Of a DNA stretch of 47,837 nt, positions 28,499 through 46,200 are shown piece by piece. The notes beneath the pieces are model-generated. The model was given only the letters and a program-made list of their open reading frames with translations. It was not told the DNA's origin and searched no databases. Numbering within the stretch: position 1 is the stretch's first letter; each line of letters opens with the position of its first letter. A program made the translations under genes and the position numbers. The stretch is from a virus, in IMG/VR virus record IMGVR_UViG_3300032307_000186, positions 1-47,837 of that record. The stretch is one strand, 5' to 3'.

Positions 28499-28507
28499 AT
28501 TATACCA
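28499..28507 (-). promoter_or_regulatory. Extended -10 promoter, TGGTATAAT
   Basis: Minus strand TGGTATAAT about 20 nt before the TTG start at 28480; the leader carries GAGGTG. Confidence 0.55.
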
Positions 28508-28553
28508 GATAATAAAGTTTATTAGGCTAGTAGTTTATAGAGATGATTTTGAT

Positions 28554-28576
28554 GGGGGATTTTGAAAGGATCCCCC
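28554..28576 (-). terminator. Terminator hairpin
   Basis: Minus strand GGGGGAT...ATCCCCC, 7-bp stem with 9-nt loop, directly after the long fibre gene stop and before the next promoter. The tail is A/T-mixed, so efficiency is uncertain. Confidence 0.5.
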
Positions 28577-28591
28577 TTAACCTTTAATAGC

Positions 28592-35829: not shown

Positions 35830-36063
35830 ATGACCAATTCCCCTGATGAAGATAAAGTAATAAGAGAAGATACAATAGAAGCACGTCCTTGGCATATGGT
35901 CACAGAGTCTAAAGTAGACCAAACCGAATTTGATCGTAGAATGACTATTTGTCGTAGCTGCGAATTTCTCAAAAGACCAGCAGAACAATGTTCTAAGTGT
36001 GGATGTTTTATGAAGCTTAAGACTAAGATAGAAAGAGCTCATTGTCCTGTGCATAAGTGGTAA
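35830..36063 (+). CDS. Cys-rich zinc-ribbon-like protein
   Basis: Protein of 77 residues. The C-terminal half has CRSCEFL, CSKCGCFMKLKTK and AHCPVHKW, six Cys and a conserved end seen in small zinc-ribbon phage proteins of aquatic phages. Function unknown; likely binds metal. Apparently leaderless. Confidence 0.65.
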   Translation: MTNSPDEDKVIREDTIEARPWHMVTESKVDQTEFDRRMTICRSCEFLKRPAEQCSKCGCFMKLKTKIERAHCPVHKW

Positions 36064-36195
36064 TGGTTTTCTAGCTTCGCCATCAGAGATGACTTGATAC
36101 CCCGAAAATATAGGCTATCTAGCTAATATCAAACCATTTTTCTTGACAAACCATTATTTGTTGACAAACCAAGGTTTTGCTGCTATCCTGGATAT
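36064..36195. other. Intergenic region, repeats
   Basis: No gene. Contains TTGACAAACCA-type segments (36143 and 36161), a CCCCGAAAA motif repeated at 36096 and 36261, and imperfect inverted pieces. It carries the promoter of the next small gene. Confidence 0.4.
36161..36189 (+). promoter_or_regulatory. Canonical promoter, leaderless
   Basis: TTGACA (36161-36166), 17-nt spacer, TATCCT (36184-36189), then 6 nt to the ATG at 36196. Confidence 0.65.
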
Positions 36196-36276
36196 ATGAC
36201 ATCAGAGTTAGCTTTATGGTTTATTGTTATAGCATTGGCTATTAAGGTGTTCTTTGGAGATACCCCGAAAAAGTAA
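36196..36276 (+). CDS. Micro-membrane peptide 1
   Basis: 26 residues, MTSELALWFIVIALAIKVFF... ending in DTPKK. One hydrophobic helix (~6-20) with a basic tail. Leaderless start under a good promoter supports it as real. Function unknown. Confidence 0.55.
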   Translation: MTSELALWFIVIALAIKVFFGDTPKK

Positions 36277-36298
36277 CCAAACCGTTACCAAACCGTTA
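36277..36298. repeat. Tandem 11-bp direct repeat
   Basis: CCAAACCGTTA twice in tandem, 36277-36287 and 36288-36298. Sits directly after micro-peptide 1 and at the end of the minus-strand operon; may be an operator. Confidence 0.5.
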
Positions 36299-36300
36299 TA

Positions 36301-36348
36301 TTAGTTTTTCTTCTCACATTTGCATGTGTCGCATTTGCAATCATTCAT
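36301..36348 (-). CDS. Tiny Cys-rich peptide
   Basis: 15 residues, MNDCKCDTCKCEKKN, with a C-x-C-x2-C-x-C pattern. It starts 2 nt after the stop of the upstream micro-peptide. Metal binding is plausible; so short that coding cannot be established. Confidence 0.3.
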   Translation of the reverse strand: MNDCKCDTCKCEKKN

Positions 36349-36350
36349 GA

Positions 36351-36431
36351 CTAGTCCCTATCTCTGTATTTGATCAAGATGGCAATAGATATTGTTATCA
36401 GGAGGATTATGGATCCTTCTATGATTGCCAT
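36351..36431 (-). CDS. Micro-membrane peptide 2
   Basis: 26 residues, MAIIEGSIILLITISIAILI followed by KYRDRD: a single hydrophobic helix with a charged C-terminus. A TATAAT box ends 5 nt before the ATG (leaderless). Confidence 0.55.
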   Translation of the reverse strand: MAIIEGSIILLITISIAILIKYRDRD

Positions 36432-36436
36432 GATTA

Positions 36437-36442
36437 ATTATA
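36437..36442 (-). promoter_or_regulatory. Leaderless promoter, TATAAT
   Basis: Minus strand TATAAT, 5 nt before the ATG at 36431. Confidence 0.4.
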
Positions 36443-36458
36443 CACCTGATACCCCCAA

Positions 36459-36535
36459 AAATCTGAAAAATATTGTAAAGGTGGTTTGGAGGAAATCTGA
36501 AAAAATTTTTAAATTCAGATCTAGCAAAATCTGAA
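36459..36535. repeat. AAATCTGAA repeat cluster
   Basis: Three direct copies of AAATCTGAA (36459, 36493, 36527) and one inverted TTCAGAT (36514). The first and second, and second and third, start exactly 34 nt apart, about three helical turns, so it may bind a protein as an array. Confidence 0.5.
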
Positions 36536-36547
36536 TATTTTATTGAG

Positions 36548-36560
36548 ATGTATGATACAT
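36548..36560. promoter_or_regulatory. Palindromic operator-like site
   Basis: ATGTAT-G-ATACAT, a perfect 6-bp inverted repeat, next to the AAATCTGAA cluster. Typical size for a small repressor operator. Confidence 0.4.
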
Positions 36561-36589
36561 GATTTTATAAAAAAATAAATAAAAAAATA

Positions 36590-36620
36590 GTGCGCACACA
36601 AACTAGGCAGGGGGGGATAC
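36590..36620 (-). terminator. Possible terminator of small operon
   Basis: After the small zinc gene the minus strand has AGGGG-TAT-CCCCC, then the palindrome GTGCGCAC (36590-36597) followed by TATTTTTTTATTTATTTTTTTA. This combination could end the minus-strand operon; stems are short. Confidence 0.4.
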
Positions 36621-36626
36621 CCCTAC

Positions 36627-36710
36627 TTAGTAATCACATCCAATTTCGGGATGCGTGTTTACATAAACATCTTGACCACATCTTGGGCATTCAAACATTT
36701 CATTTTCCAT
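36627..36710 (-). CDS. Small zinc-finger-like protein
   Basis: 27 residues, MENEMFECPRCGQDVY..., ending EIGCDY. CPRCG fits one half of a zinc ribbon with a later Cys. Immediately follows the stop of the next gene upstream (TAA/ATG), so translation is coupled. Confidence 0.5.
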   Translation of the reverse strand: MENEMFECPRCGQDVYVNTHPEIGCDY

Positions 36711-36809
36711 TTATTTATTTTCACTTTCATTTAGATTTATTGTTAGAGAGGCGATAGAAGAAATTGCGTCATCAAATTCTTCCCAAGTTTCAAAAGTTAG
36801 AGTAATCAT
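36711..36809 (-). CDS. Small acidic protein
   Basis: 32 residues, MITLTFETWEEFDDAISSIA..., acidic and helical, with GAAAGGA ribosome site inside the preceding gene's last codons and ATGA overlap. Unknown function. Confidence 0.5.
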   Translation of the reverse strand: MITLTFETWEEFDDAISSIASLTINLNESENK

Positions 36810-37036
36810 TTTTTCCTTTCATTGTATTCTTTATTCATCTTAGCTATCATCTTATCCCAACGAGCGTTAGCCTCGTTAGTGATTTGGTTATCAGTAAAGT
36901 AATCTTGACTAGCTAATGCTTTTTCATAATTCCATTCATCACGCTTGATAGCGTTGCTGTCATCACTACTTTCAGCAGTGTAGCAATTAGTCTTTAGTCT
37001 AACTAATGACTCAAACATTTCTTGTATCTTGTTCAT
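36806..37036 (-). CDS. Small charged helical protein
   Basis: 76 residues, MNKIQEMFESLVRLKTNCYT..., rich in charged residues and helical; contains YEKALASQDYFTDNQITNEANARWDKMIAKM. Overlaps the preceding stop (TAATG). Unknown function. Confidence 0.55.
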   Translation of the reverse strand: MNKIQEMFESLVRLKTNCYTAESSDDSNAIKRDEWNYEKALASQDYFTDNQITNEANARWDKMIAKMNKEYNERKK

Positions 37037-37170
37037 TAGTTACACTCTCCGTAAGCGTTGTAGCATAATTCGCAACACTCTTGAGCAAATTCATCTACCC
37101 ATAATCTAGGAGTGTAGTTATCGCAAATCTCGCAAAACTCTACATTTACCATTTCTACTAAGTTCATCAT
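37036..37170 (-). CDS. Cys-rich small protein (left copy of mirrored pair)
   Basis: 44 residues. FCEICDNYTPRLWVDEFA then CCELCYNAYGECN carries CxxC, CCxxC and a terminal Cys. GGAG lies 5 nt before the ATG at 37170. Clearly related to the plus-strand protein at 37523, which faces away on the other side of the origin-like region. First gene of the leftward early operon, driven by the TGTC-box promoter. Confidence 0.65.
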   Translation of the reverse strand: MMNLVEMVNVEFCEICDNYTPRLWVDEFAQECCELCYNAYGECN

Positions 37171-37213
37171 CTGAACTCCTTTCTATTTATCTAATCTTTC
37201 TTTCTATACTTAT

Positions 37214-37235
37214 AACCTATCACATACCCCCGACA
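37214..37235 (-). promoter_or_regulatory. TGTC-box promoter, leftward
   Basis: Minus strand TGTCGG, exactly 10 nt, TAGGTT. Only leftward member of the family; drives the small operon starting at 37170. CCCAAAATGT occurs twice in a row just upstream. Confidence 0.6.
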
Positions 37236-37323
37236 TTTTGGGTACATTTTGGGGTGTGTTGCGTACAAACTTTTGACCAATTTTTTGTGCCAAGGCTACA
37301 ATGCTACACCCCGCATAAATACT

Positions 37324-37349
37324 GGGCGACACGCCGCAAGCGCCGACCC
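37324..37349 (+). repeat. Hairpin-GCCGACC element 1
   Basis: CGC-CGCAA-GCG small hairpin then CCGACCC, followed directly by the DnaA box TGTGGATAA. Confidence 0.4.
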
Positions 37350-37370
37350 TGTGGATAACTCTGTGGATAA
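37350..37370. other. DnaA-box pair
   Basis: Two perfect TGTGGATAA boxes at 37350-37358 and 37362-37370, start-to-start 12 nt. Reverse complement TTATCCACA is the bacterial DnaA consensus. Confidence 0.6.
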
Positions 37371-37456
37371 CTTATGAATAGGCTACGAAATCCCTGAAAA
37401 TTCGTTATCAATTTGTTATAAAAAACTTTTACAAACACGGCGTGTCGATTTGACTT

Positions 37457-37478
37457 TGTCCTAGGTCTATGTTAGGTT
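37457..37478 (+). promoter_or_regulatory. TGTC-box promoter
   Basis: TGTCCT-N10-TAGGTT, plus TTGACT at 37450-37455, 17 nt before the -10. Drives 37523. Confidence 0.55.
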
Positions 37479-37522
37479 ATAGATATAAAGATAAATAGAA
37501 ATAAAAAGAAAGGATGTAAAAG

Positions 37523-37633
37523 ATGATTGATTTCAAATTTTGCGAAATAGATGATAACTATGTTCCAACCGTAGAGGTTGATGGCGAGGAAGCTTGCCAG
37601 TATTGCTATGAAGCTTATGGTGAAATAAACTAA
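37523..37633 (+). CDS. Cys-rich small protein (right copy of mirrored pair)
   Basis: 36 residues, MIDFKFCEIDDNYVPTVEVD..., with CQYC and CYEAYGEIN at the end. Aligns with the leftward protein at 37170-37036 (FCEI-DNY-P, C-YC/LCY, AYGE-N). RBS AAAGGA upstream. Unknown function, possibly nucleic acid binding. Confidence 0.6.
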   Translation: MIDFKFCEIDDNYVPTVEVDGEEACQYCYEAYGEIN

Positions 37634-37652
37634 GCTAATACGGCGTGTCTGC

Positions 37653-37701
37653 TTGACAGATCGCTAAAAAAATGCCGACCGCATTTTGATTGTTTTGTCA
37701 A
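37653..37701 (+). repeat. Hairpin-GCCGACC element 2
   Basis: TTGAC...GTCAA ends, 49 nt apart overall; inner AAAATGC-CGACC-GCATTTT can form a second stem; contains GCCGACCGCATTTTG. Confidence 0.55.
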
Positions 37702-37762
37702 CAAGACTTTATAAGAATGTCTAAAAATTCACTGAAGTTTTTGGCGTGTCGTATTTGACAAA

Positions 37763-37784
37763 TGTCGTAGGTCTGTGATAAGTT
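37763..37784 (+). promoter_or_regulatory. TGTC-box promoter
   Basis: TGTCGT-N10-TAAGTT; TTGACA at 37755-37760, 18 nt from the -10. Drives 37809. Confidence 0.6.
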
Positions 37785-37808
37785 TTAGCTATAACGAAAG
37801 GATACCAA

Positions 37809-37913
37809 ATGGATGACTGGAACTGCACCACTGAGGAGTTTTTCTGCTTTGAAGGGGAGGCTTACATTGAGCCTGATTGGGATAACGAGCCTCCCAGCTT
37901 CTTTGAGGAGTAG
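37809..37913 (+). CDS. Small acidic protein
   Basis: 34 residues, MDDWNCTTEEFFCFEGEA..., acidic with aromatic residues and two Cys, ending PPSFFEE. CGAAAGGA precedes the start. No recognisable family. Confidence 0.5.
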   Translation: MDDWNCTTEEFFCFEGEAYIEPDWDNEPPSFFEE

Positions 37914-37915
37914 GC

Positions 37916-37945
37916 TTGACAAGCCCAGGTAAACCTGGTCGGCCC
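37916..37945 (+). repeat. Hairpin-TCGGCC element 3
   Basis: TTGAC, then CCAGG-TAAA-CCTGG hairpin, then TCGGCCC, followed directly by TGTGGATAA. Confidence 0.55.
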
Positions 37946-37966
37946 TGTGGATAACTATGTGTATAA
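37946..37966. other. DnaA-box-like pair
   Basis: Perfect TGTGGATAA (37946-37954) and TGTGTATAA (37958-37966), start-to-start 12 nt, the same spacing as the pair at 37350. Confidence 0.5.
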
Positions 37967-38044
37967 CTCTTTACGTTATCTACAAAAATCCTCACGAAAG
38001 TTTTAGGAAATCCACAAAAGAAAATAGGGCGTTTCTATTGTAAA

Positions 38045-38066
38045 TGTCGTAGGTGTGTGATAGGGT
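38045..38066 (+). promoter_or_regulatory. TGTC-box promoter
   Basis: TGTCGT-N10-TAGGGT; TTGTAA 17 nt upstream of the -10. Drives 38096. Confidence 0.55.
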
Positions 38067-38095
38067 TTTAGTAAGTCAAGAGAAAGAAGGAACAA

Positions 38096-38236
38096 ATGGA
38101 CAAGATGTGTGTTTACTGCGAGAGCGTGTTCACAAGCGATACTATCGTTTGCCACAACTGTAATGAGTATGACGGAATGATGCCGTTGGAAAAAGCAATA
38201 GACTACCTAAACCTTGACCCTAACGACTATCTATAA
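38096..38236 (+). CDS. Small zinc-ribbon-like protein
   Basis: 46 residues, MDKMCVYCESVF... CHNCNEYDGMM...; CVYC and CHNC are 12-14 residues apart, as in a zinc ribbon. AAAGAAGGA precedes the start. Unknown role. Confidence 0.55.
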   Translation: MDKMCVYCESVFTSDTIVCHNCNEYDGMMPLEKAIDYLNLDPNDYL

Positions 38237-38237
38237 A

Positions 38238-38259
38238 TGTCAGTAGGGTATGCTAGGTT
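38238..38259 (+). promoter_or_regulatory. TGTC-box promoter
   Basis: TGTCAG-N10-TAGGTT, starting 1 nt after the previous stop codon. Drives 38282. Confidence 0.55.
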
Positions 38260-38281
38260 AGAACTAACGAAAGGAAATAAA

Positions 38282-38449
38282 ATGGAAAAAGTAGAAACAC
38301 TAGGAACTAGGGACTTGGTTGAGCTTGTAAAAGCAACAACAGGTCTAACAGACATTGGCGGTTATTCTTACGCTCTAACCCTTATGTGGGAATTGGCAGA
38401 CAACAAGCTAAAGAATAAAGTTCTTGAGCTAATTGAGGAGAGCAACTAA
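38282..38449 (+). CDS. Small protein of unknown function
   Basis: 55 residues, MEKVETLGTRDLVELVKATTG, then LTDIGGYSYALTLMWELADNKL, mostly helical. I start at 38282 with AAAGGA upstream; a longer reading would translate the promoter. Overlaps next gene (TAATG). Confidence 0.55.
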   Translation: MEKVETLGTRDLVELVKATTGLTDIGGYSYALTLMWELADNKLKNKVLELIEESN

Positions 38450-38598
38450 TGAACGAGCAAGAGTTTGATGAATTACTTGATGAGCTTTACCCTGTTTACC
38501 AAATTGGAGAGCTAACTTTTTACCCTTCACAAATTCTAAAAGCTTGCGACCCAATTGCTTATCGTATAGGATTGTCAGAGGTTGAGGTTGATGAGTAA
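38449..38598 (+). CDS. Small acidic protein
   Basis: 49 residues, MNEQEFDELLDELYPVYQIG..., acidic N-terminus, later CDPIAYRIGLSEVEVDE. Overlaps both neighbours. Unknown. Confidence 0.5.
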   Translation: MNEQEFDELLDELYPVYQIGELTFYPSQILKACDPIAYRIGLSEVEVDE

Positions 38599-38686
38599 AG
38601 AAGAATTAGAGATGTTGATTTACCAAATTGACCTAATGCTAACAGAAAATGTTGGCGAACTATTTACAACACCAGAGGAGAAATAA
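38591..38686 (+). CDS. Small helical protein
   Basis: 31 residues, MSKEELEMLIYQIDLMLTEN..., amphipathic. Its ATG overlaps the end of the previous gene by 8 nt in another frame. Unknown. Confidence 0.45.
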   Translation: MSKEELEMLIYQIDLMLTENVGELFTTPEEK

Positions 38687-38688
38687 AA

Positions 38689-38829
38689 ATGGACTACTTG
38701 ATTTTTGGAATTGTTATTCTAGCTTTGCTAATTGTTTTTGTTGGAACTCAACTAATGGCAATTTTGTTTTTGATGTCAGAGAACGAGAAGATACAAAAAG
38801 AAGCAGAGAAAAACTTTCCGCCTTTTTGA
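38689..38829 (+). CDS. Small membrane protein
   Basis: 46 residues with one long hydrophobic helix (about 3-30, FGIVILALLIVFVG), then a charged tail ENEKIQKEAEKNF. GAGGAG upstream. Possible inner-membrane accessory protein. Confidence 0.55.
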   Translation: MDYLIFGIVILALLIVFVGTQLMAILFLMSENEKIQKEAEKNFPPF

Positions 38830-38830
38830 T

Positions 38831-38879
38831 TTGACAAATCCACCGAAAGGTGGTCGGCACATTTTGATCCAAAAGTCAA
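38831..38879 (+). repeat. Hairpin-TCGGC element 4
   Basis: TTGAC, CCACC-GAAA-GGTGG hairpin with a GNRA loop, TCGGCACATTTTGATCC, then GTCAA; outer TTGAC/GTCAA pairing over 49 nt. Confidence 0.6.
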
Positions 38880-38920
38880 TTACGTAGTCTATTAAAAAAG
38901 TCGTGGAATATCCCACAAAA

Positions 38921-38942
38921 TGTCAGTAGTTTGTGTTATTCT
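38921..38942 (+). promoter_or_regulatory. TGTC-box promoter
   Basis: TGTCAG-N10-TATTCT, preceded by CCCACAAAA. Drives the HNH gene at 38966. Confidence 0.5.
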
Positions 38943-38965
38943 TTTACTACAAGAAAGGAAGCCAA

Positions 38966-39310
38966 ATGAAGAAACTACCCTATGGCAAGACAAGGCTTGA
39001 GCGTAGAAAATTCTTAGATTCTTACAAGATAGGCAAGGGATGTGAAGAATGTGGATACAAAGACTATCCAGAAGCTTTACAGTTAGACCACTTAGACCCT
39101 AAGACCAAATACCGCACAAAAAATGGCAAGACCCTAAATCCAGGAGAAATGATAGGAATGTCTCAAGCTATCTTTTTTGCTGAGCTGAAGAAGTGTCGTG
39201 TTATTTGTGCCAACTGCCATGCTGTTCACACTAAGAAGCAACAGGCTGAAATTAGGATGCTAAACAGTATGCTAGAAATGTCAGAGGGTTATGCTAGGCT
39301 ATTGGTATGA
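38966..39310 (+). CDS. HNH endonuclease-like protein
   Basis: 114 residues. CEECGYKDYPEALQLDHLDP and later KCRVICANCHAVHT give the two CxxC pairs and the DH-centred motif of the HNH family. Such proteins nick or cut DNA, either as selfish homing enzymes or in packaging/repair. I start at 38966 (AAAGGA upstream). Its last residues, EMSEGYARLLV, are encoded by the next TGTC-box promoter. Confidence 0.75.
   Translation: MKKLPYGKTRLERRKFLDSYKIGKGCEECGYKDYPEALQLDHLDPKTKYRTKNGKTLNPGEMIGMSQAIFFAELKKCRVICANCHAVHTKKQQAEIRMLNSMLEMSEGYARLLV
39279..39300 (+). promoter_or_regulatory. TGTC-box promoter inside HNH gene
   Basis: TGTCAG-N10-TAGGCT within the last codons of the HNH gene; would drive the following small genes. 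Confidence 0.5.
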
Positions 39311-39468
39311 TAGGTAAAAGAAATGAAGCAAGACGCAAGGCAGAAAGCCAAGCGCTATTCCAGTCTATGCTAAAAGCCCCTCACCTAGTAGAAACCCCAA
39401 AGAAATACAAAGGCACACGCCAAAGCAACAAAGTAAACGCTATCAAAGAAAGTAGAGCTAATGGTTAG
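39307..39468 (+). CDS. Small basic protein
   Basis: 53 residues, very basic (MIGKRNEARRKAESQAL..., KKYKGTRQSNKVNAIKESRANG). Likely nucleic-acid binding. Overlaps the HNH stop (ATGA). Confidence 0.5.
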   Translation: MIGKRNEARRKAESQALFQSMLKAPHLVETPKKYKGTRQSNKVNAIKESRANG

Positions 39469-39604
39469 TTATGTATGCGAAGACTGTAGAAAGTTCGTTC
39501 ACTCAGATACAGTGTATGGCTATCTACTCAAGAATGTCTGTGGTAGATGTTATGCTATTTATGCTAATCACCCCTCAACAAGAAAGCTGGTAAAGAATGT
39601 TTGA
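39461..39604 (+). CDS. Small zinc-finger-like protein
   Basis: 47 residues. CEDC and CGRC pairs ~18 residues apart, then a basic end. Starts inside the previous gene's last codons. Metal binding likely; role unknown. Confidence 0.5.
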   Translation: MVSYVCEDCRKFVHSDTVYGYLLKNVCGRCYAIYANHPSTRKLVKNV

Positions 39605-39692
39605 GAATGTAATCAACGAAGAAGCTATTGAAGCCCTAAGCGAAGATGCTATTGATGAGCTATTGGCTATGTTTGAGAAGGCAGGATACTAG
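39597..39692 (+). CDS. Small acidic helical protein
   Basis: 31 residues, MFENVINEEAIEALSEDAID..., acidic and helical. Overlaps the previous stop. Unknown. Confidence 0.4.
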   Translation: MFENVINEEAIEALSEDAIDELLAMFEKAGY

Positions 39693-39817
39693 TGTTAGGA
39701 CAACTAAGCGTTCACTTTTGTGAAACCTGTTGTGAGTTTGGTATGGTGTCAGTAGTCAATGGTAAACTAATGGTTCAGTATTGTGATTGTGAAACAGAAA
39801 CAGTAGAAGGAGAATAG
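39692..39817 (+). CDS. Cys-rich protein with GTG start
   Basis: 41 residues, LGQLSVHFCETCCEFGMVSV... QYCDCETETVEGE: CxxCC and CDC. GTG start shares a base with the previous stop; start is inferred. A TGTC-box motif lies inside the gene (39747-39768). Confidence 0.4.
   Translation: MLGQLSVHFCETCCEFGMVSVVNGKLMVQYCDCETETVEGE
39747..39768 (+). promoter_or_regulatory. TGTC-box promoter inside gene
   Basis: TGTCAG-N10-TAAACT with a ~65-nt leader to the ATG at 39820. Confidence 0.4.
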
Positions 39818-39819
39818 CA

Positions 39820-40107
39820 ATGGGAATGTCAACAGCAATGGGCATAGCAGGAACAGAAGTATCCTTAGAGCAACAACTAGCAATGCACTTTAGTAGTAAT
39901 TGTTATCCACCAATTCCTAGCAAGATGATACCAGTAGCGAAGATGGCTATCTTCCACTATTGGGAACAAGACTATCATGCCATGGTTGAGCTACCAGAAG
40001 GCGTAGAGTTTAGAAATGGAGCAACCTCCATTCCTGCAAGTCAAGTTATTGAGTCACTTAGACTTGACGCTTGGGTAATGGAAGACGAAGAAGGAGAGGA
40101 ATACTAA
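39820..40107 (+). CDS. Conserved hypothetical protein
   Basis: 95 residues, MGMSTAMGIAGTEVSLEQQL..., with NCYPPIPSKMIPVAKMAI. No recognisable family. GAAGGAG upstream; overlaps the next start (TAATG). Confidence 0.55.
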   Translation: MGMSTAMGIAGTEVSLEQQLAMHFSSNCYPPIPSKMIPVAKMAIFHYWEQDYHAMVELPEGVEFRNGATSIPASQVIESLRLDAWVMEDEEGEEY

Positions 40108-40253
40108 TGGCGTATCTAACTAACACTTGGTATGTTGAGTATCAAGATGGATCAATTGAGCCCGTTGCTAATCTGGCTACTGCCAGGCACTTGGTGATGT
40201 CTAATGTTGCTATTAGAATTGTAGACACTAACAGAATGTTAGCAACAGCCTAA
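40107..40253 (+). CDS. Small beta-rich protein
   Basis: 48 residues, MAYLTNTWYVEYQDGSIEPVA... ending NRMLATA. Short strand-rich fold; unknown function. Confidence 0.5.
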   Translation: MAYLTNTWYVEYQDGSIEPVANLATARHLVMSNVAIRIVDTNRMLATA

Positions 40254-40262
40254 ATAATAGAC

Positions 40263-40312
40263 TTGACAAGTCCCCTGAAAAGGGGCCGACCAGATTTTGC
40301 TGCAGATGTCAA
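40263..40312 (+). repeat. Hairpin-CCGACC element 5
   Basis: TTGAC, CCCCT-GAAA-AGGGG hairpin, CCGACCAGATTTTG, then GTCAA; 50 nt from end to end. Confidence 0.6.
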
Positions 40313-40352
40313 ATTAAGAATGTTTAAGAAACCCCTGAAAGATCCTTAGAAA

Positions 40353-40374
40353 TGTCAGAGGGTATTGCTAAAAT
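40353..40374 (+). promoter_or_regulatory. TGTC-box promoter
   Basis: TGTCAG-N10-TAAAAT. Drives 40399, with ACGAAAGGA in the leader. Confidence 0.55.
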
Positions 40375-40398
40375 AATCTTATAAACGAAAGGACCCCA

Positions 40399-40917
40399 AT
40401 GGACTACTATGCAGCATACACAGGAATAGTAAAGAGCGCTACTTTTGGACAAGTAGAGCAAGCAAGTAAATGGTACGTAGACGCAGAGCGTATTGCAGAG
40501 AAGGTTGCAGAAAACCTAAACACTACTCTAGAGGTTGGTGCAAGTGTTGTTTCTGCATTCTCACCTAGAGAGCGTTGGTCAGTAAATGTTGCTAGGGCTA
40601 TTGCTTGGTCATTAGGGCAGGATGTTGCTTGTCTAAAGAATAACCTAGTAATGGCTAACAATGCCTTGACACTTGGCTTTGGTGCTTTGAAGGGTATGAA
40701 AACTAATGCATTCGCTAAGGCTATTGCAGGTGATGAGCAAGCTGTCGTGATTGATGTATGGATGTTACGGGCAGTTGGAATTGAGCGTAAGACACCTAAC
40801 CAGTCTCAATACAATGAGCTAGTAGAGGCAGTAAAGAAAACCGCATTTGATTTTGGTATGACACCTAGAGCAATGCAAGCCCTAATCTGGATTGTAGTTA
40901 GAGGGAGTGCCCAGTGA
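40399..40917 (+). CDS. Conserved hypothetical protein, possible DNA-glycosylase-like fold
   Basis: 172 residues, largely helical: SAFSPRERWSVNVARAIAW, MKTNAFAKAIAGDEQAVVID-W-LRA, and a C-terminal FGMTPRAMQALIWIVVRG. The pattern of helices with conserved D and W is reminiscent of helix-hairpin-helix DNA glycosylases, but I see no catalytic residues I would trust. Family common in phages of actinobacteria, to my recollection; treat as unknown. Confidence 0.5.
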   Translation: MDYYAAYTGIVKSATFGQVEQASKWYVDAERIAEKVAENLNTTLEVGASVVSAFSPRERWSVNVARAIAWSLGQDVACLKNNLVMANNALTLGFGALKGMKTNAFAKAIAGDEQAVVIDVWMLRAVGIERKTPNQSQYNELVEAVKKTAFDFGMTPRAMQALIWIVVRGSAQ

Positions 40918-40946
40918 TTGACAAGTTAGGTAGATTGTGAGATAAT
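40918..40946 (+). promoter_or_regulatory. Canonical promoter near-leaderless
   Basis: TTGACA (40918-40923), 17 nt, GATAAT (40941-40946), then 8 nt to the ATG at 40955. Confidence 0.55.
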
Positions 40947-40954
40947 GGTAGACT

Positions 40955-41023
40955 ATGGAAATTATAATACTCTCTCTAGCCCTAATTGCCCTAATGATAC
41001 TCTGGTTAGCAGGAGCTAACTAA
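40955..41023 (+). CDS. Micro-membrane peptide 3
   Basis: 22 residues, MEIIILSLALIALMILWL followed by AGAN: one hydrophobic helix. Third such micro-peptide next to a strong promoter. Confidence 0.5.
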   Translation: MEIIILSLALIALMILWLAGAN

Positions 41024-41032
41024 ATACCCTGG

Positions 41033-41086
41033 CCCCTTGACAAAAGGGGTACAGGTGTGCCGACCACATTCCGATCCTAAAATCAA
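41033..41086 (+). repeat. Hairpin-GCCGACC element 6
   Basis: CCCC...GGGG with TTGAC inside; GTGCCGACCACATTCCGATC; TTGA (41037) to TCAA (41086), 50 nt apart overall. Confidence 0.5.
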
Positions 41087-41150
41087 GTTACGAAGTATAA
41101 CGATTTTCCCCCAGAAATGTTATAAATAAATTGCTAAATAGAGTTGATAA

Positions 41151-41172
41151 TGTCGTAGGGTTAGGCTACAAT
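41151..41172 (+). promoter_or_regulatory. TGTC-box promoter
   Basis: TGTCGT-N10-TACAAT; TTGATA 17 nt upstream of the -10. Drives 41223. Confidence 0.6.
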
Positions 41173-41222
41173 AGAGCTATCAACAAAAGTTGATAATCAA
41201 AATAAAATAGATAGGAAGCAAA

Positions 41223-41375
41223 ATGTCAAACACCACTCTAACTGTTGGCTCACAGTTCACCACCGCCAAGTCAAAGGTATCTGGCGTAATTGAGGAAATC
41301 GTAAAGAACCCTAGTGGCTCTGCTCGTGTCAAGCTCAATGTAAATGGACAGACTCGCTGGACTACTGTAAAGTAA
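41223..41375 (+). CDS. Small conserved protein
   Basis: 50 residues, MSNTTLTVGSQFTTAKSKVS, then GVIEEIVKNPSGSARVKLNV and a basic end with W. Beta-rich; a similar short protein occurs in other actinophages, to my recollection. RBS AAGGAAG lies upstream. Unknown function. Confidence 0.55.
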   Translation: MSNTTLTVGSQFTTAKSKVSGVIEEIVKNPSGSARVKLNVNGQTRWTTVK

Positions 41376-41444
41376 TCTAGTTTGTGTTGGCGTTGGACTA
41401 CATAAAAGGGATAATCAGAGTCCGTTCGAATCCCCCTGCCACCA
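41376..41444 (+). tRNA. tRNA-like 3' end or remnant
   Basis: Contains GTTCGAATC and CCCCCTGCCACCA, i.e. a T-loop-like segment plus a CCA-type end. GTTGGCG upstream could pair with TGCCACC (6 of 7 pairs) and GGACT pairs with AGTCC. But the T stem does not pair and there is no D arm. More likely a decayed tRNA, a tRNA-like structure or an attachment-site core than a working tRNA. Confidence 0.25.
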
Positions 41445-41513
41445 CTTTATTAGGTTAGTTATCCATAATTGAGGCTCGTAGAGATAACCGAAAAGCACCC
41501 TCTCCCTAATAAA
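41445..41513 (+). other. Nested hairpin after tRNA-like segment
   Basis: TTTATTAGG...CCTAATAAA (approximate ends 41445 and 41513) encloses GTTATC...GATAAC. Could be a structured RNA or terminator between the tRNA-like segment and the next promoter. Confidence 0.4.
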
Positions 41514-41535
41514 TGTCAGACCCTAATGGTAAAAT
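41514..41535 (+). promoter_or_regulatory. TGTC-box promoter
   Basis: TGTCAG-N10-TAAAAT; drives 41581. Confidence 0.5.
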
Positions 41536-41580
41536 AAGAAAGTAAACAAAACCCCAAAGAAGAAAAGGAAGTAATAAACT

Positions 41581-42027
41581 ATGGCAAGAACAATGTCAGT
41601 AAAAATCCCAACGGCAAGTCTAATCGCAGACATAGAAAAGTCTATTGCTAAGATTGACGCAGATGTTGAGGCGTATGCTGGATTGCGTAAGCAGTATGAG
41701 CTAGATGTCAAGAAGTATCAAGATGACCTAGTTGCTCACGCTATCAAGGCACTATCAGACCCAAGCAACATTGGAACAGAACACGGAAGTTTGGTTCGTC
41801 TTAGCACTAACCACTATCGTAATGATGTGTCTGTTGAGTTTGACCCAGAGGGACTAGGCTTTCCAAAGAAGCCAGAAGAACCAACCAAGCCAAATGACAA
41901 AACCTATTTTGGTCGTGAGTATGTAACTCGTAAGGAATTGTTACAGCGTAATCTTCGTATCCTGAAGATGACAACTCAAGAAGAAGTATCAGCGAGTTCT
42001 TACTCCGCTGTTATTGACCTTATCTAA
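41581..42027 (+). CDS. Hypothetical coiled-coil protein
   Basis: 148 residues. N-terminal ~60 residues are helical, heptad-like (LIADIEKSIAKIDADVEAY), then PKKPEEPTKPNDKTYFGREY and a helical end. AAGGAAG upstream. Unknown role; may be a structural or DNA-binding accessory. Confidence 0.55.
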   Translation: MARTMSVKIPTASLIADIEKSIAKIDADVEAYAGLRKQYELDVKKYQDDLVAHAIKALSDPSNIGTEHGSLVRLSTNHYRNDVSVEFDPEGLGFPKKPEEPTKPNDKTYFGREYVTRKELLQRNLRILKMTTQEEVSASSYSAVIDLI

Positions 42028-42064
42028 TAACAGATAACCACCTAAGCAAGTGGCTAAACTGCTT

Positions 42065-42130
42065 CCACTCCCCTCCACCGCTGAAGGATCTTGTATCCAC
42101 AAATACTGCGAGGGGAAAAAGTGGGCCGAC
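42065..42130 (+). repeat. Hairpin-GCCGAC element 7
   Basis: CCCCTC...GAGGGG (long loop) with flanking CCAC...GTGG, then GCCGAC. Same design as element 9. Confidence 0.5.
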
Positions 42131-42183
42131 AAAAGTAACAGATTGATAACAACTTTAAGAAATAAGCTTAAGAACTCCCAAAA

Positions 42184-42205
42184 TGTCAGTGGTGCTTGGT
42201 AAAAT
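42184..42205 (+). promoter_or_regulatory. TGTC-box promoter
   Basis: TGTCAG-N10-TAAAAT. Followed 6 nt later by an ATG (42212) and later by GTG (42230) with an AAAGGA site. Confidence 0.55.
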
Positions 42206-42229
42206 ATAGCTATGAAGAAAGGAACCCAG

Positions 42230-42352
42230 GTGGACGAGCAAGCAGCAGAGATTAGACAAGACCTAGCAGACTACTATGCTAACCCAGAAGAATATACTCT
42301 TGAAGACTTTGAGGAAATCTTTCAGGATAGGGACCCCTTTGAGTTTCTATAA
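42230..42352 (+). CDS. Small acidic protein (GTG start)
   Basis: 40 residues from GTG at 42230, DEQAAEIRQDLADYYANPEE... acidic. GAAAGGA sits upstream as in other genes here. An in-frame ATG at 42212, 6 nt after the -10, would add six residues in a leaderless mode. Unknown function. Confidence 0.5.
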   Translation: MDEQAAEIRQDLADYYANPEEYTLEDFEEIFQDRDPFEFL

Positions 42353-42374
42353 TGTCAGTGGTTCGTGGTAGAAT
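42353..42374 (+). promoter_or_regulatory. TGTC-box promoter
   Basis: TGTCAG-N10-TAGAAT, 1 nt after the previous stop; drives 42400. Confidence 0.55.
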
Positions 42375-42399
42375 ACAAACAAACAACGAAAGGAAAACA

Positions 42400-42597
42400 A
42401 TGTCATACGTACTAGAACAGACAAGCTATGTTTCAGAAGACGGAAACTATGGAACAGGATACCTACTAACTTTCCCATACGATTCTTTAGATGAAGACCA
42501 GTGGGCTATCCTTGACACGCTACCTGACAATGACAAAATGTTGTATGCTCAGGCCATACTTGACGGACAAGCGGACTTATCAGAATGGGAAGACTAA
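42400..42597 (+). CDS. Small protein
   Basis: 65 residues, MSYVLEQTSYVSEDGNYGTG... DSLDEDQWAILDTL. Start at 42400 (AAAGGA upstream). Coupled to the next gene by TAATG. Confidence 0.5.
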   Translation: MSYVLEQTSYVSEDGNYGTGYLLTFPYDSLDEDQWAILDTLPDNDKMLYAQAILDGQADLSEWED

Positions 42598-42788
42598 TGC
42601 CAAAATACTATGTAAAGATGAGAATTGATTTCGATGGAGAAATTGAAGCAGATTCAATGCACGAGGCGGAGCAATTAGCTCATACCTCATGGGGAGACAG
42701 CATGACTGATGATATTTCTTTTGACGGTGTCTACAGCATAGACGTCGAAGAACTTGAAGACGAAGATGAGGATGAAGAGGATGAGTAA
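42597..42788 (+). CDS. Small protein with acidic tail
   Basis: 63 residues, MPKYYVKMRIDFDGEIEADS... MHEAEQLAH, ending in a run of E/D (EELEDEDEDEEDE). It has the pattern of a small alpha/beta (DUF-like) protein; the same fold type appears at 45696. Unknown. Confidence 0.5.
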   Translation: MPKYYVKMRIDFDGEIEADSMHEAEQLAHTSWGDSMTDDISFDGVYSIDVEELEDEDEDEEDE

Positions 42789-42900
42789 GCACTTTAGGTG
42801 TGGAACCACTGTTTCTTTTGAAGACGTATCTGATGGATACTTTGCTCAATGCCCCAGCTGTGATGAGGATGTTTTTAGTTTTGAGTTGACAGACATGTAG
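42781..42900 (+). CDS. Small zinc-ribbon-like protein
   Basis: 39 residues, MSKHFRCGTTVSFEDVSDGY... CPSCDEDVFSFEL. A single Cys near the start and CPSC later; metal binding is possible. Overlaps the previous stop region by 8 nt. Confidence 0.45.
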   Translation: MSKHFRCGTTVSFEDVSDGYFAQCPSCDEDVFSFELTDM

Positions 42901-42939
42901 TGCATTCCCTTACTTCCTTTCTGGAATGTACTACCGTCC

Positions 42940-42997
42940 TGGCCATGACGTAAAACTGGCCACAAGCCTGGCCGACCCATTTTGATCTAAAAGTCAA
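42940..42997 (+). repeat. Hairpin-GGCCGACC element 8
   Basis: TGGCCA...TGGCCA pair, then GGCCGACCCATTTTGATC and AAAAGTCAA; 5' TTGAC is farther upstream (in the previous gene's last codons). CATTCC/GGAATG hairpin lies just before it (42903-42928). Confidence 0.5.
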
Positions 42998-43041
42998 GTT
43001 TAAGAAGGTAATTAAGAAAACCATAGAAATAAGCTTGACAA

Positions 43042-43063
43042 TGTCAGAGGGTGGGTGTAAGAT
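43042..43063 (+). promoter_or_regulatory. TGTC-box promoter
   Basis: TGTCAG-N10-TAAGAT; TTGACA 17 nt upstream of the -10 (43035-43040). Drives the DUF932 gene. Confidence 0.65.
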
Positions 43064-43100
43064 AGTCTTATCAAAACAAAACACTAAAGAAAGGCAACAC

Positions 43101-44111
43101 ATGGCACATTTGCTAGAATCAGTAAACGGAGAAACCGCATTTGCTTCACTTAGAGAGCCAGCTTGGCATGGCTTGGGTGAGGTATTTACTGAGGAAGTAT
43201 CCACAACAGAAATGCTAAAGAAAGCTAAGCTAAACAACTGGAATGTTCGCTTAGAAGAGGTAGCAATTCCAACAGGTATGGAATCAGACAAAAACTATTC
43301 TTTTGTTGTTCGTGATAACCCATTTACCAAGGGCAACAAAGATGTTCTAGGTATTGTTGGTGAGCGCTATGCCCCACTACAAAACGAGGAACTATTTGAT
43401 TTTGCTGATAACATTCTTGACAATGGCGGACGCTGGGAGACAGCTGGTTCAATCAAGGGTGGCAGAATTGTTTTTGGTTCCCTTGCCCTTGAGCGTGAAA
43501 CTGTTATTGACCCTAACGGCGTATCAGATAAAGTAAACACCTATCTGCTAGTAAACACTAGCCATGACGGTTCAATTTCAATTCAGGCAAGTATCACACC
43601 TGTCAGAGTTGTATGTGCCAACACACTAAACCTAGCGTTAGGTAATCGTGGTCGTGGTGGTTCTGTCAAGCAGTCCTTCAAGATTCGCCACACCCAAACA
43701 GCTTCTGGTAAAGTTGCTGTTGCTCGTGAGGCATTGGGTCTAGCTAACCAATACATGGACGAGTTTAGCGTAATGGCAAACGACATGATTCAAACAGAAG
43801 TAAACAAAAAGAAGTTTGATGAAATTGTTTTGGCATTGTATCCTAAGCCAAAAGATGAGGCGAAGAACGCAATTAGTCGTTGGGAAAACAAGATAGACCT
43901 TATCAACGAAATCTATGTTGGACAATTCAACAACACCATTTCTGGAACAGCTTGGGGTGTTGCTAACGCTCTAACTGAAAGACTAGACTGGTATCGCACA
44001 GGCAGAGGTGGCAAGACAGAATCTGTTCTTGCTGGTGCTTCTGGTTTTGACGCTATGGTAAACGCAGAGAAGAACAAAATCTTCAAAGCTGTTTTGTTGG
44101 CAACAGCATAA
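43101..44111 (+). CDS. DUF932 phage/plasmid-like protein
   Basis: 336 residues. N-terminus AFASLREPAWHGLGEVFTE, then GIVGERYAPLQNEELFDFAD, VCANTLNLALG and KIRHT match the DUF932 family of phage/plasmid proteins. Function unknown; sometimes linked to DNA recombination or host takeover. ATG at 43101 has AAAGGC upstream. Moderately expressed early-type gene. Confidence 0.8.
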   Translation: MAHLLESVNGETAFASLREPAWHGLGEVFTEEVSTTEMLKKAKLNNWNVRLEEVAIPTGMESDKNYSFVVRDNPFTKGNKDVLGIVGERYAPLQNEELFDFADNILDNGGRWETAGSIKGGRIVFGSLALERETVIDPNGVSDKVNTYLLVNTSHDGSISIQASITPVRVVCANTLNLALGNRGRGGSVKQSFKIRHTQTASGKVAVAREALGLANQYMDEFSVMANDMIQTEVNKKKFDEIVLALYPKPKDEAKNAISRWENKIDLINEIYVGQFNNTISGTAWGVANALTERLDWYRTGRGGKTESVLAGASGFDAMVNAEKNKIFKAVLLATA

Positions 44112-44145
44112 ACCAAAAGTCCTAGGCATGACTGAAAACTGCCTT

Positions 44146-44176
44146 CCACTCTGTGGATCAAAAAAGTGGCCGACCC
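44146..44176 (+). repeat. Hairpin-GGCCGACC element 9
   Basis: CCAC...GTGG around TCTGTGGATCAAAAAA, then CCGACCC. Confidence 0.45.
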
Positions 44177-44253
44177 TTCTTAATATTTATCTTATTAGTT
44201 TAAAAAAAGTAATTAAGAATGTTATTAAAAATTTCCCAGAATGTATTGATAAA

Positions 44254-44275
44254 TGTCGTAGGGTTGGTATAGAAT
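44254..44275 (+). promoter_or_regulatory. TGTC-box promoter
   Basis: TGTCGT-N10-TAGAAT; TTGATA 18 nt upstream of the -10. Drives 44302. Confidence 0.6.
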
Positions 44276-44301
44276 GATACTACCTAAAAGAAAGGCAACA
44301 A

Positions 44302-44805
44302 ATGGGAACCAGAAACCTAACAGTAGTAAAAGACAAAGCAGGAACAACTAGAATAGCACAATACGGACAATGGGACGGATACCCACAGCATTCAGGTCTA
44401 AAGACTTTAGACTTCCTAAGAGATGAAATCCTAAAGGATAATCTACTACAAAGACTGACACTCGTCCAGTTTATTTCAGATAAAGAATGTGATGAGCTGT
44501 ATAACGCTAGTAAGAGTAGCACTGATTGGGAGAATAAAGAGTTTCTAAACGAATACCCTGGACTACATAGGGATACAGGTGTGGACATTCTGTTAGCGGT
44601 TGCTAGTGCTACTGAAACTCTAAAGACTATTGACAATTCAGAGTTCGCTAAAGATGAGCTATTTTGTGAGGGTATCTATGAGGTAGACTTCTCCACTAAT
44701 AACTTTATCTCTACTTATCACGGTAAGACAGTTCAGTTTGACTTGGATACCCTGCCAACAGACGAGGAATACCTAGAGGCTATGGGGGTAGAAGCTCTTG
44801 TTTGA
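44302..44805 (+). CDS. Conserved hypothetical protein (MGTRNLTVV family)
   Basis: 167 residues. MGTRNLTVVKDKAGTTRIAQ and YGQWDGYPQHSG are the conserved start of a family found in phages; function unknown. RBS AAAGGC. Mixed alpha/beta, acidic end. Confidence 0.6.
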   Translation: MGTRNLTVVKDKAGTTRIAQYGQWDGYPQHSGLKTLDFLRDEILKDNLLQRLTLVQFISDKECDELYNASKSSTDWENKEFLNEYPGLHRDTGVDILLAVASATETLKTIDNSEFAKDELFCEGIYEVDFSTNNFISTYHGKTVQFDLDTLPTDEEYLEAMGVEALV

Positions 44806-44962
44806 TAACTTAGATACTAAATACCTATCAGGCGACCTAGCAACAGATGTCCAGTTTATCAAGGATAATCTTAGTCTTGAAGATAAGGACTTTTTCAAGA
44901 GACAGCTACACCTAATAATGTCAGAGGGTAATGCTAGAATTGACGAAACGGAAGGAAAGTAG
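44798..44962 (+). CDS. Small protein with TTG start
   Basis: 54 residues from TTG at 44798, FDNLDTKYLSGDLATDVQFI... acidic/helical, ending in the MSEGNARIDETEGK block that is encoded by the next promoter. TTG start is inferred. Overlaps the previous stop by 8 nt. Confidence 0.35.
   Translation: MFDNLDTKYLSGDLATDVQFIKDNLSLEDKDFFKRQLHLIMSEGNARIDETEGK
44919..44940 (+). promoter_or_regulatory. TGTC-box promoter inside gene end
   Basis: TGTCAG-N10-TAGAAT inside the end of the 44798 gene; drives 44963. Confidence 0.5.
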
Positions 44963-45157
44963 ATGATGAAGCTAACAAGCACAGACCTAAAGACTTGGCA
45001 GGTAGAGTATTCTGCTGCTTATTGGGTAGAGGCTACAAGCGAAGATGAGGCAATTGAGAAGGCTATGGACATACACGCTGACTTGCCTGACGGTAGTTGG
45101 GAAGCTATGATTGACCCCTATGATAGCAACAACTTCAATACCCTAGGAGAAAAGTAA
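44963..45157 (+). CDS. Small protein
   Basis: 64 residues, MMKLTSTDLKTWQVEYSAAY then WVEATSEDEAIEKAMDI; alternating strand and helix. Related in pattern to the genes at 42597 and 45696 (W-V-EA-SE-EA). GGAAGGA upstream. Coupled to the next gene. Confidence 0.55.
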   Translation: MMKLTSTDLKTWQVEYSAAYWVEATSEDEAIEKAMDIHADLPDGSWEAMIDPYDSNNFNTLGEK

Positions 45158-45228
45158 TGGAACACGAATGTACAAGGCTGGTAGACGTAGATACAGATTG
45201 CTGGATTTGCGGTAAGGACTTGGACTAA
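45157..45228 (+). CDS. Small MEHEC-type Cys protein, copy 1
   Basis: 23 residues, MEHECTRLVDVDTDCWICGK then DLD; C4, CWIC. Paralogous to the 45467 gene (MEHEC...C-ECGKEL). Confidence 0.45.
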   Translation: MEHECTRLVDVDTDCWICGKDLD

Positions 45229-45250
45229 TGTCAGTAGGTGTTACTATAAT
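45229..45250 (+). promoter_or_regulatory. TGTC-box promoter
   Basis: TGTCAG-N10-TATAAT, the most consensus -10 in the family; 7 nt before an ATG (45258). Confidence 0.6.
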
Positions 45251-45257
45251 GGAGCCT

Positions 45258-45467
45258 ATGATGATTGAATGTCCTAGGCACGAAGGCAACTTTGATTGCA
45301 CACCTTTTTGTAATGTATGCGAAGGCGAGCAGGAGTATCAGTATACAGAGACTATTCCTTGTAGGGATTGTTCTACCCCAGTTGACCACGATATCTGGTT
45401 TGAAGAACTAGAGATGTGTGTTGATTGTTCAAATAAGTTCTATACCCACGAAGACGAGGAAGACTGA
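45258..45467 (+). CDS. Zinc-ribbon-like protein
   Basis: 69 residues, MMIECPRHEGNFDCTPFCNV... with CxxC-type sites (CNVC, CRDC, CVDC). Start at 45258 is 7 nt after the -10 (leaderless) or 45261 with GGAG; the two differ by one Met. Metal-binding; unknown role. Confidence 0.55.
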   Translation: MMIECPRHEGNFDCTPFCNVCEGEQEYQYTETIPCRDCSTPVDHDIWFEELEMCVDCSNKFYTHEDEED

Positions 45468-45562
45468 TGGAACACGAATGCTATGGCTACATAGATCTGT
45501 TCAACATAAGCAACAATAAAAATATAAAATGCCATGAGTGCGGAAAAGAGCTGGGTACATAA
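45467..45562 (+). CDS. Small MEHEC-type Cys protein, copy 2
   Basis: 31 residues, MEHECYGYIDLFNISNN... CHECGKELGT. Paralogue of the 45157 gene. ATGA overlap with the previous gene. Confidence 0.5.
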   Translation: MEHECYGYIDLFNISNNKNIKCHECGKELGT

Positions 45563-45569
45563 CCAGATC

Positions 45570-45587
45570 CCTCGAAAGAGGTCGGCC
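45570..45587 (+). repeat. Hairpin-TCGGCC element 10
   Basis: CCTC-GAAA-GAGG hairpin then TCGGCC. GNRA loop as in elements 4 and 5. Confidence 0.55.
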
Positions 45588-45640
45588 AGCTTTACATAAC
45601 TATTTATATTAAGAATACGAAAAAAACCTTTAAGAAGGTA

Positions 45641-45669
45641 CTTGACAAAATCACTGAAATATGGGACAA
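45641..45669 (+). promoter_or_regulatory. Sigma70-type promoter
   Basis: TTGACA, 17-nt spacer, GACAAT (approximate ends); no TGTC box. Drives 45696. Confidence 0.5.
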
Positions 45670-45695
45670 TTGACTATCAACCCCAAGGAGACAAA

Positions 45696-45866
45696 ATGCC
45701 CCTATATAAAATCCAAAGAGAATACACCAACTGGGAAGAAATTACAGTTGAAGCTGATTCAGAAGAGCATGCCCTAGAACTTGCAGATGAAGAAGAAACC
45801 TGGGAAATGGCATATGACGTCAACTCATACAATTACACTGGAGAAGTTTGGGTAGGTCTAGACTAA
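45696..45866 (+). CDS. Small acidic alpha/beta protein
   Basis: 56 residues, MPLYKIQREYTNWEEITVEA then DSEEHALELADEEETWEMA. Same A/S-EE-A-E-A fold as 42597 and 44963. AAGGAG upstream. Unknown. Confidence 0.55.
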   Translation: MPLYKIQREYTNWEEITVEADSEEHALELADEEETWEMAYDVNSYNYTGEVWVGLD

Positions 45867-45970
45867 TGGCTAAGCACATCCACTACTATTCATATGGAGC
45901 ATGCATTCATTGTAATAAGGTTATCAATAAAGGCCTAGGCGTTGACATGTACAATGGGAAGAAGGTATAA
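45866..45970 (+). CDS. Small protein with CxxC
   Basis: 34 residues, MAKHIHYYSYGACIHCNKVI... with one CIHC. Overlaps both neighbours (TAATG). Unknown. Confidence 0.45.
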   Translation: MAKHIHYYSYGACIHCNKVINKGLGVDMYNGKKV

Positions 45971-46200
45971 TGCCTATATACGTTGATAAGAGACCTAGGG
46001 TAAATGATACTACTTGGACCAGGATCTTCCATTATGATACCCTCCAAGTTTTAGAAGCAGATGGGTATTACGACTTCTATAAAATAATCACTGAAGGTGA
46101 ACGCCCTAAGTACTTTTTTGGAGAGACCGCATGGAGCGATGTGCAGCGTGTCGCTATTGACAAAATAGGATTTCAAGGCTATAATGTATTTAGAAAGTAA
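45970..46200 (+). CDS. Hypothetical protein
   Basis: 76 residues, MPIYVDKRPRVNDTTWTRIF..., mixed with several aromatic residues. Coupled with the previous gene. Unknown. Confidence 0.5.
   Translation: MPIYVDKRPRVNDTTWTRIFHYDTLQVLEADGYYDFYKIITEGERPKYFFGETAWSDVQRVAIDKIGFQGYNVFRK

Follow-up and report, generated by a model that had tools for sequence, protein, structure and literature searches.

The early arm of an uncultivated virus carries 18 sites in which a TGTC box stands at a fixed distance from a TANNNT -10 hexamer. The window in which they lie is the whole stretch of DNA analysed here, 47,837 nucleotides (positions 1 to 47,837) of the linear IMG/VR virus record IMGVR_UViG_3300032307_000186. 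From their sequence, we consider it likely that the sites are promoters of the RecA-independent DNA-damage type (RecA-NDp), and that the phage early block would be run by the PafBC activator of the host together with the housekeeping RNA polymerase. The array opens with its single leftward site (37214..37235, minus strand, TGTCGGGGG..TGATAGGTT), and a small CxxC open reading frame (ORF) begins 43 nt past its -10. All other sites are on the plus strand. The first two, 37457..37478 and 37763..37784, have a -35-like TTGACT 17 nt and a TTGACA 18 nt 5' of the -10, respectively; 38045..38066 is followed by a small CxxC ORF, 38238..38259 comes next, and 38921..38942 precedes an HNH endonuclease gene. 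Further along lie 39279..39300, 39535..39556, 39747..39768 and 40353..40374 (the last before a DUF7178 gene), then 41151..41172 (-35-like TTGATA 17 nt 5' of the -10), 41514..41535, and the sites 42184..42205 and 42353..42374, both of which read TGTCAGTGG, the full RecA-NDp core. The site at 43042..43063 precedes the DUF932 gene and has TTGACA 17 nt 5' of its -10; 44254..44275 has a -35-like TTGATA at 18 nt, and after 44919..44940 the array ends with 45229..45250. Very small ORFs occupy 37040-38235, three of the four with CxxC pairs and each with a box promoter of its own.

At 17 of the 18 sites a Shine-Dalgarno-like stretch and a start codon (loose criterion) follow 10-51 nt past the -10; 39279 is the sole site for which no Shine-Dalgarno-preceded start was found within 90 nt. 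The box might itself be taken for coding sequence, as AATGTCAG can be read as a start codon, at or just 5' of which four of the listed ORFs begin. Yet a non-regulatory origin, whether as a repeated coding leader (ATG TCA GNG GGT) or as a chance motif, is extremely improbable. At 37763, 38045, 41151 and 44254 the third codon of the leader frame is a stop (ATG TCG TAG), on which ground the leader peptide was rejected, and chance is excluded by the shuffles and spacer controls given below. The most frequent letters over the 18 sites are AATGTCAGAGG and TGnTAnnnT, an extended -10. A -35-like hexamer (5 or 6 matches to TTGACA, 17–18 nt from the -10) accompanies 5/18 sites, whereas 13/18 have no hexamer with at least 5 such matches at 15–19 nt, which indicates independence of a -35 by sequence only.

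The spacing was defined by comparing spacers 4–19 at positions from 36000 onwards, where TGTC-N12-TANNNT, our working pattern, gave 18 matches on the plus and 3 on the minus strand, and the runners-up 6 in all. Over the whole window this pattern occurs 27 times against 9.3 expected (highest of 100 shuffles, 22). Three of the 21 early-arm matches (40198 on the plus strand, 40268 and 44335 on the minus strand) were discarded by eye as chance, and a matrix was made from the remaining 18. The kept sites score 18.0–30.3, the discarded ones 3.4, -2.6 and 1.5, respectively. At a score of at least 14 all matches of the matrix, 17 rightward and one leftward, fall in the early arm, and positions 1–36000 have none. 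As a spacing control, the -10 was shifted by every distance from -8 to 12 nt. With outward shifts of 1–12 nt the window yields 0–4 sites, compared with 18 at the true spacing. Inward shifts of 5 and 6 nt yield 9 and 6, respectively; there the two halves of the matrix overlap and the same bases are counted twice. At the looser score of 10, the shift of -5 gives 19 sites against 21 at the true spacing.

The initial annotation had described a rigid promoter family of 16 rightward sites and one leftward site, confined to the early arm, with a box near -25 in place of a -35. The family is borne out by the single peak at spacer 12, with other early-arm spacings near background, and so is its confinement (18 early sites against none late at a score of at least 14); the placing of the box was right in kind. 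The pattern is in excess over both shuffles and late arm, and it recurs in relatives. The pattern of directions stands, with one more rightward site than had been counted. The rigidity of the spacer stands as well, but not its stated length, which had been counted from two bases past TGTC, those two being part of the box: the literal TGTC-N10-TANNNT is at chance (10 in the window against 8.5 expected), and N12 from TGTC is correct. Sites with a TTGACA- or TTGATA-type -35 are indeed a minority, five rather than about six. As reader of TGTC(A/G)(G/T), a phage or host activator, a sigma partner or a repressor had been proposed, an interpretation that is partly supported: the RecA-NDp identity of the box was missed.

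That identity is suggested by the consensus printed for tuberculosis, tTGTCRgtg followed by 8 nt and TannnT (PMC5656591), because it has the same core and spacing as the phage box. According to the available text of the papers cited here, PafBC, a WYL-domain heterodimer, turns on its target genes through the RecA-NDp motif (PMC6789036), which extends to other Actinobacteria (PMC8223512). In the initiation complex the helix-turn-helix of PafB lies on the -26 motif and that of PafC on SigA domain 4; PafBC inserts between the DNA and SigA domain 4, a mode of activation published as sigma adaptation, and the -26 motif replaces the -35 contact; PafBC is activated by single-stranded DNA bound to its WYL domains (PMC11804915). 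The printed core, TGTCR-N11-TANNNT, occurs 17 times in 36001–46000, including the discarded 40268 (300 shuffles: mean 0.85, maximum 5), and 3 times in 1–36000. R directly follows TGTC at 16/18 sites; of the early-arm sites, 7 contain TGTCRGNG (mean in shuffles, 0.04) and 2 contain TGTCRGTG (0.01). With RecA-NDp promoters, such as recA P1 in mycobacteria, the phage sites share the TGTCR core, the fixed 12 nt to TANNNT, a box at about -26, no need of a -35 and a non-palindromic box. They differ from them in forming an 18-site array in an early arm, in the AA before TGTC, in GG at box positions 8–9 and in the extended -10, and the nameable genes behind the phage boxes include no repair gene.

The closest isolates of the phage, by portal (~46% identity) and DUF932 (~53%), are Streptomyces cluster BE phages (Stanwilliamsviridae). 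Nearer DUF932 relatives (59–90% identity) are 18 viral loci from 17 records. These loci hold 153 matrix sites, compared with 1–30 at spacings widened by 1–12 nt; being kin sequences, and including both ends of one contig, they show conservation and not 153 independent events. Distinct in sequence are 131 of the 153; their most frequent letters are TGTCGGTGG, and A occupies position -1 in 82% of them and position -2 in 85%. The 124.5-kb contig G004 has direct terminal repeats of 8.5 kb, and all 18 of its sites (13 counting repeat copies once) lie in 112127–119021 (~7 kb) and its terminal-repeat copy. All 19 sites of G009 (one duplicated at the overlapping ends) lie from 110498 to 8480 across the joint, and 13 of the 14 in G005 lie in 80168–87103. 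An exact-pattern scan of viral contigs returned at least 120 stretches, from which 80 loci were taken, each chosen for at least one match. They hold 333 matrix sites, against 1–47 at widened spacings, and 39/80 have at least 4; 36 of these 39 have at least one protein in common with this phage group. With the overlapping shifts of -7 to -5, counts reach up to 9 in the window, 54 in the relatives and 104 in the 80 loci, where the true spacing gives 18, 153 and 333, respectively.

The array is not a general trait of BE phages: three BE regions (16, 50 and 16 kb) gave 1, 2 and 1 matrix matches. BE phages resemble the window in their portal and DUF932, as its nearest isolates, and in carrying DUF932 genes at two positions in each record, and differ from it in that the early promoters of three of them are mostly TTG..TGnTAGACT and lack the box. 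One box-promoter-like site lies in the first 10 kb of each BE region (L026 at 9898, L028 at 9709, L027 at 8162), and Jay2Jay and Evy have near-identical sequence 3' of this site. No match with a score of at least 14 was found in regions of six isolates, Francesca (Rhodococcus), Blueeyedbeauty (Streptomyces), Abba and Racecar (Arthrobacter), Pickles13 (Microbacterium) and Stinger (Mycobacterium), all partial genomes except Abba and Pickles13. WhiB was tried as an actinophage marker and proved weak (7/28 array records against 1/22 single-match records).

The phage host group is probably the actinobacteria. Among the best 80 of 568 relatives of the G004 NrdA, the first two are from Rhodoluna metagenome-assembled genomes (MAGs; 78%), followed by Sanguibacter, Curtobacterium and others (76–77%). 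Adjacent WYL pairs resembling PafB-PafC are present in 6/6 genomes taken from this NrdA list, and 61/61 genomes of the order of candidate host G022 have 2–4 WYL matches each, among the matches listed. In G018, which belongs to the Rhodoluna-MAG genus, the WYL pair matches solely chains of PafBC entries (6sj9, 7p5x, 9fnd, 9fne) and by eye has a TatC-like gene close by.

The box is also found in these candidate hosts. In the order of G022, a spacer-12 box lies 5' of recA in 21/30 genomes, other spacers (2–23) giving 0–2; it reads TGTCAGTGG in 12 of the 21, and an SOS-box-like TTCGAAC stands alongside in 19. In the Rhodoluna-MAG genus 13/20 genomes have such a box 5' of recA (other spacers, 2–23, 0–2), with AATGTC in 10 of the 13. 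Across 61 candidate-host genomes TGTCRGNGGNNNNTGNTANNNT gave 24 matches and the reversed pattern 2, and in 60 genomes of the Rhodoluna-MAG genus AATGTCRGWGG-N7-TANNNT gave 64 against 3. Of thirty AATGTCRGWGG loci read, 5 precede recA, and others lie before genes taken by eye for those of an oligoribonuclease, a UvrD-like helicase and LysM proteins. A matrix from recA promoters of the Rhodoluna-MAG genus (threshold 10) finds 11 matches in the phage early arm, compared with 0–4 at other spacings. As the AA prefix of the phage sites resembles the recA boxes of this genus, unlike those of G022's order, it weakly suggests a Rhodoluna-like host. In one contig of the genus that carries chromosomal genes (L376, G166:C8), three box-promoter-like sites lie within 5.4 kb (13172, 14570 and 18535), and an ORF at 17532 is 45–46% identical to ORFs of the viral loci L264 and L247.

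The presence of the box at host recA bears on two other explanations. The box could be an operator at which a phage or host repressor silences the early genes, and L5-like phages do have repeated asymmetric sites containing TGTCA, but we regard this as very unlikely: the box is rigidly coupled over 12 nt to a -10, start codons lie near downstream, the same box stands at host recA, and no integrase or repressor gene was noted when the ORFs listed for the window and for G004 were read by eye, without a family search. Somewhat less improbable, though still unlikely, is a phage-encoded activator other than a WYL protein that reads the box as MotA of T4 does, with the RecA-NDp likeness due to convergence or to competition for host sites. 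Arrays of sites for one activator are typical of phage middle promoters, and only 2/10 early proteins pass the Pfam curated cut-off, both with domains of unknown function. Against it, the same box with the same spacing occurs before recA and elsewhere in host genomes. A phage-encoded WYL protein or sigma factor was rejected, as a WYL match was found in neither the window (0/1) nor the relatives' records (0/17) nor 50 further pattern-found viral records (0/50), and a Sigma70_r2 match in 0/23 phage records; many of these records are fragments, and the search did not extend to other activator folds.

Several observations weigh against a PafBC-run early block. The more distant G017 (59% DUF932 identity) lacks an array and has 3 scattered matrix matches. 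The WYL and Sigma70_r2 negatives, covering two Pfam families, leave room for another phage activator. The host assignment rests on a small NrdA margin (78% for the Rhodoluna MAGs, 77% for Curtobacterium), and the AA prefix is a weak host link that does not prove the true host. Three host WYL proteins, the G018 pair included, were assigned to no NCBIfam family. A matrix from recA promoters of G022's order does not pick up the phage sites, and the one from the Rhodoluna-MAG genus also gives 6 late-arm matches at threshold 10. The exact TGTCRGTG is confined to two sites; the published consensus gives gtg in small letters. SigA alone might suffice for the extended -10, and promoter activity and PafBC action at the sites are inferred.

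Between the leftward box promoter and the first rightward one, the interval 37235..37457 contains two exact DnaA boxes on the reverse strand (37358 and 37370) and is a possible replication origin; further exact DnaA boxes in the window lie at 37954 and 35260. In the corresponding intervals (163–257 bp, the window included), G004 has 3 DnaA boxes (112206–112325), G009 has 1 (111105) and G005 has 2 (80465–80476). Binomial probabilities, computed post hoc, are 1e-4 for the window, 1e-7 for G004, 0.01 for G009 and 9e-6 for G005. In G009, the leftward site has a further rightward site on its left. G017 has three DnaA boxes clustered at 28507–28672 and no array, which makes the DnaA boxes independent of the array. 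The positions in the four array genomes suggest a DnaA-type replication origin; both its placing at the point of divergence and its coupling to PafBC are a guess.

Other repeats and promoter-like sites lie in and near the array. GGCGTGTC occurs around the array start at 37439, 37642, 37743 and, reversed, 37335, three times directly before TTGAC, and is also found near the array start in G004, G009 and G005. GCCGACC is present nine times, counting both strands (37342–45586), in the early arm only and by eye mostly intergenic, with 2, 0, 0 and 1 copies in G004, G009, G005 and G017, respectively. The only tandem repeat in the window is at 36130–36171. Beyond the box array, the distal early arm has two promoter-like sites with 12-of-12 matches to TTGACA-(17/18)-TATAAT (45942–45971 and 46157–46185), which may be used in the first minutes after infection.

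In the mechanism that we propose, PafBC would bind a -26 box, AATGTC[A/G]G[T/A]GG, at a rigid distance of 12 nt from an extended -10 (TGnTAnnnT), and with the housekeeping RNA polymerase would transcribe the phage early block by sigma adaptation. Since PafBC needs single-stranded DNA, the entry or replication of phage DNA could supply this trigger during infection. Tentatively, and with less confidence than in the promoter identity itself, PafBC could then act as a progress sensor of infection, in a self-amplifying loop in which single-stranded DNA activates PafBC and PafBC turns on the early genes through promoters on both sides of the origin; host repair would be raised too, to the benefit of the phage. 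A precedent for an early damage-type response to phage in actinobacteria is given by phage WC1 in Rhodococcus, for which the available text reports homologous recombination, including RecA, among the enriched host pathways and recX up at 5 min (PMC10986025).

PafBC promoters are already known; a phage early regulon built on them appears to be new as far as we found, with no instance in the literature searched, which consisted of listings and the starts of abstracts and included few subscription papers. If this reading is true, there is a group of uncultivated actinophages that relies on a stress activator of the host, and carries none of its own, to run the early regulon. Phage takeover would then proceed by sigma adaptation, with the phage exploiting a WYL regulator that senses single-stranded DNA, a class otherwise linked, in the printed work available, to DNA repair and anti-phage defence. 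Hosts without PafBC should in that case resist such phages, and the motif offers a sequence signature for spotting these phages and their hosts in metagenomes.

Among known systems, the middle promoters of T4 are alike in that the MotA box takes the place of the -35 and keeps a constant distance to the -10. The box is a different one, and T4 encodes MotA and AsiA, whereas the box of the present phage corresponds to that of a host regulon and no activator of its own was recognised; the resemblance noted in the initial annotation holds as an analogy only. Its comparison with L5 stoperators, which are likewise repeated and asymmetric with TGTCA, is not supported: stoperators are repressive and not locked to a -10, whereas all 18 phage sites, found by that spacing, are -10-locked, lie mostly before start codons and share their box with host recA promoters. 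LexA-controlled phage promoters, such as those of tectivirus GIL01, also place phage genes under a host DNA-damage regulator; LexA works by release of repression, whereas PafBC is an activator that requires single-stranded DNA.

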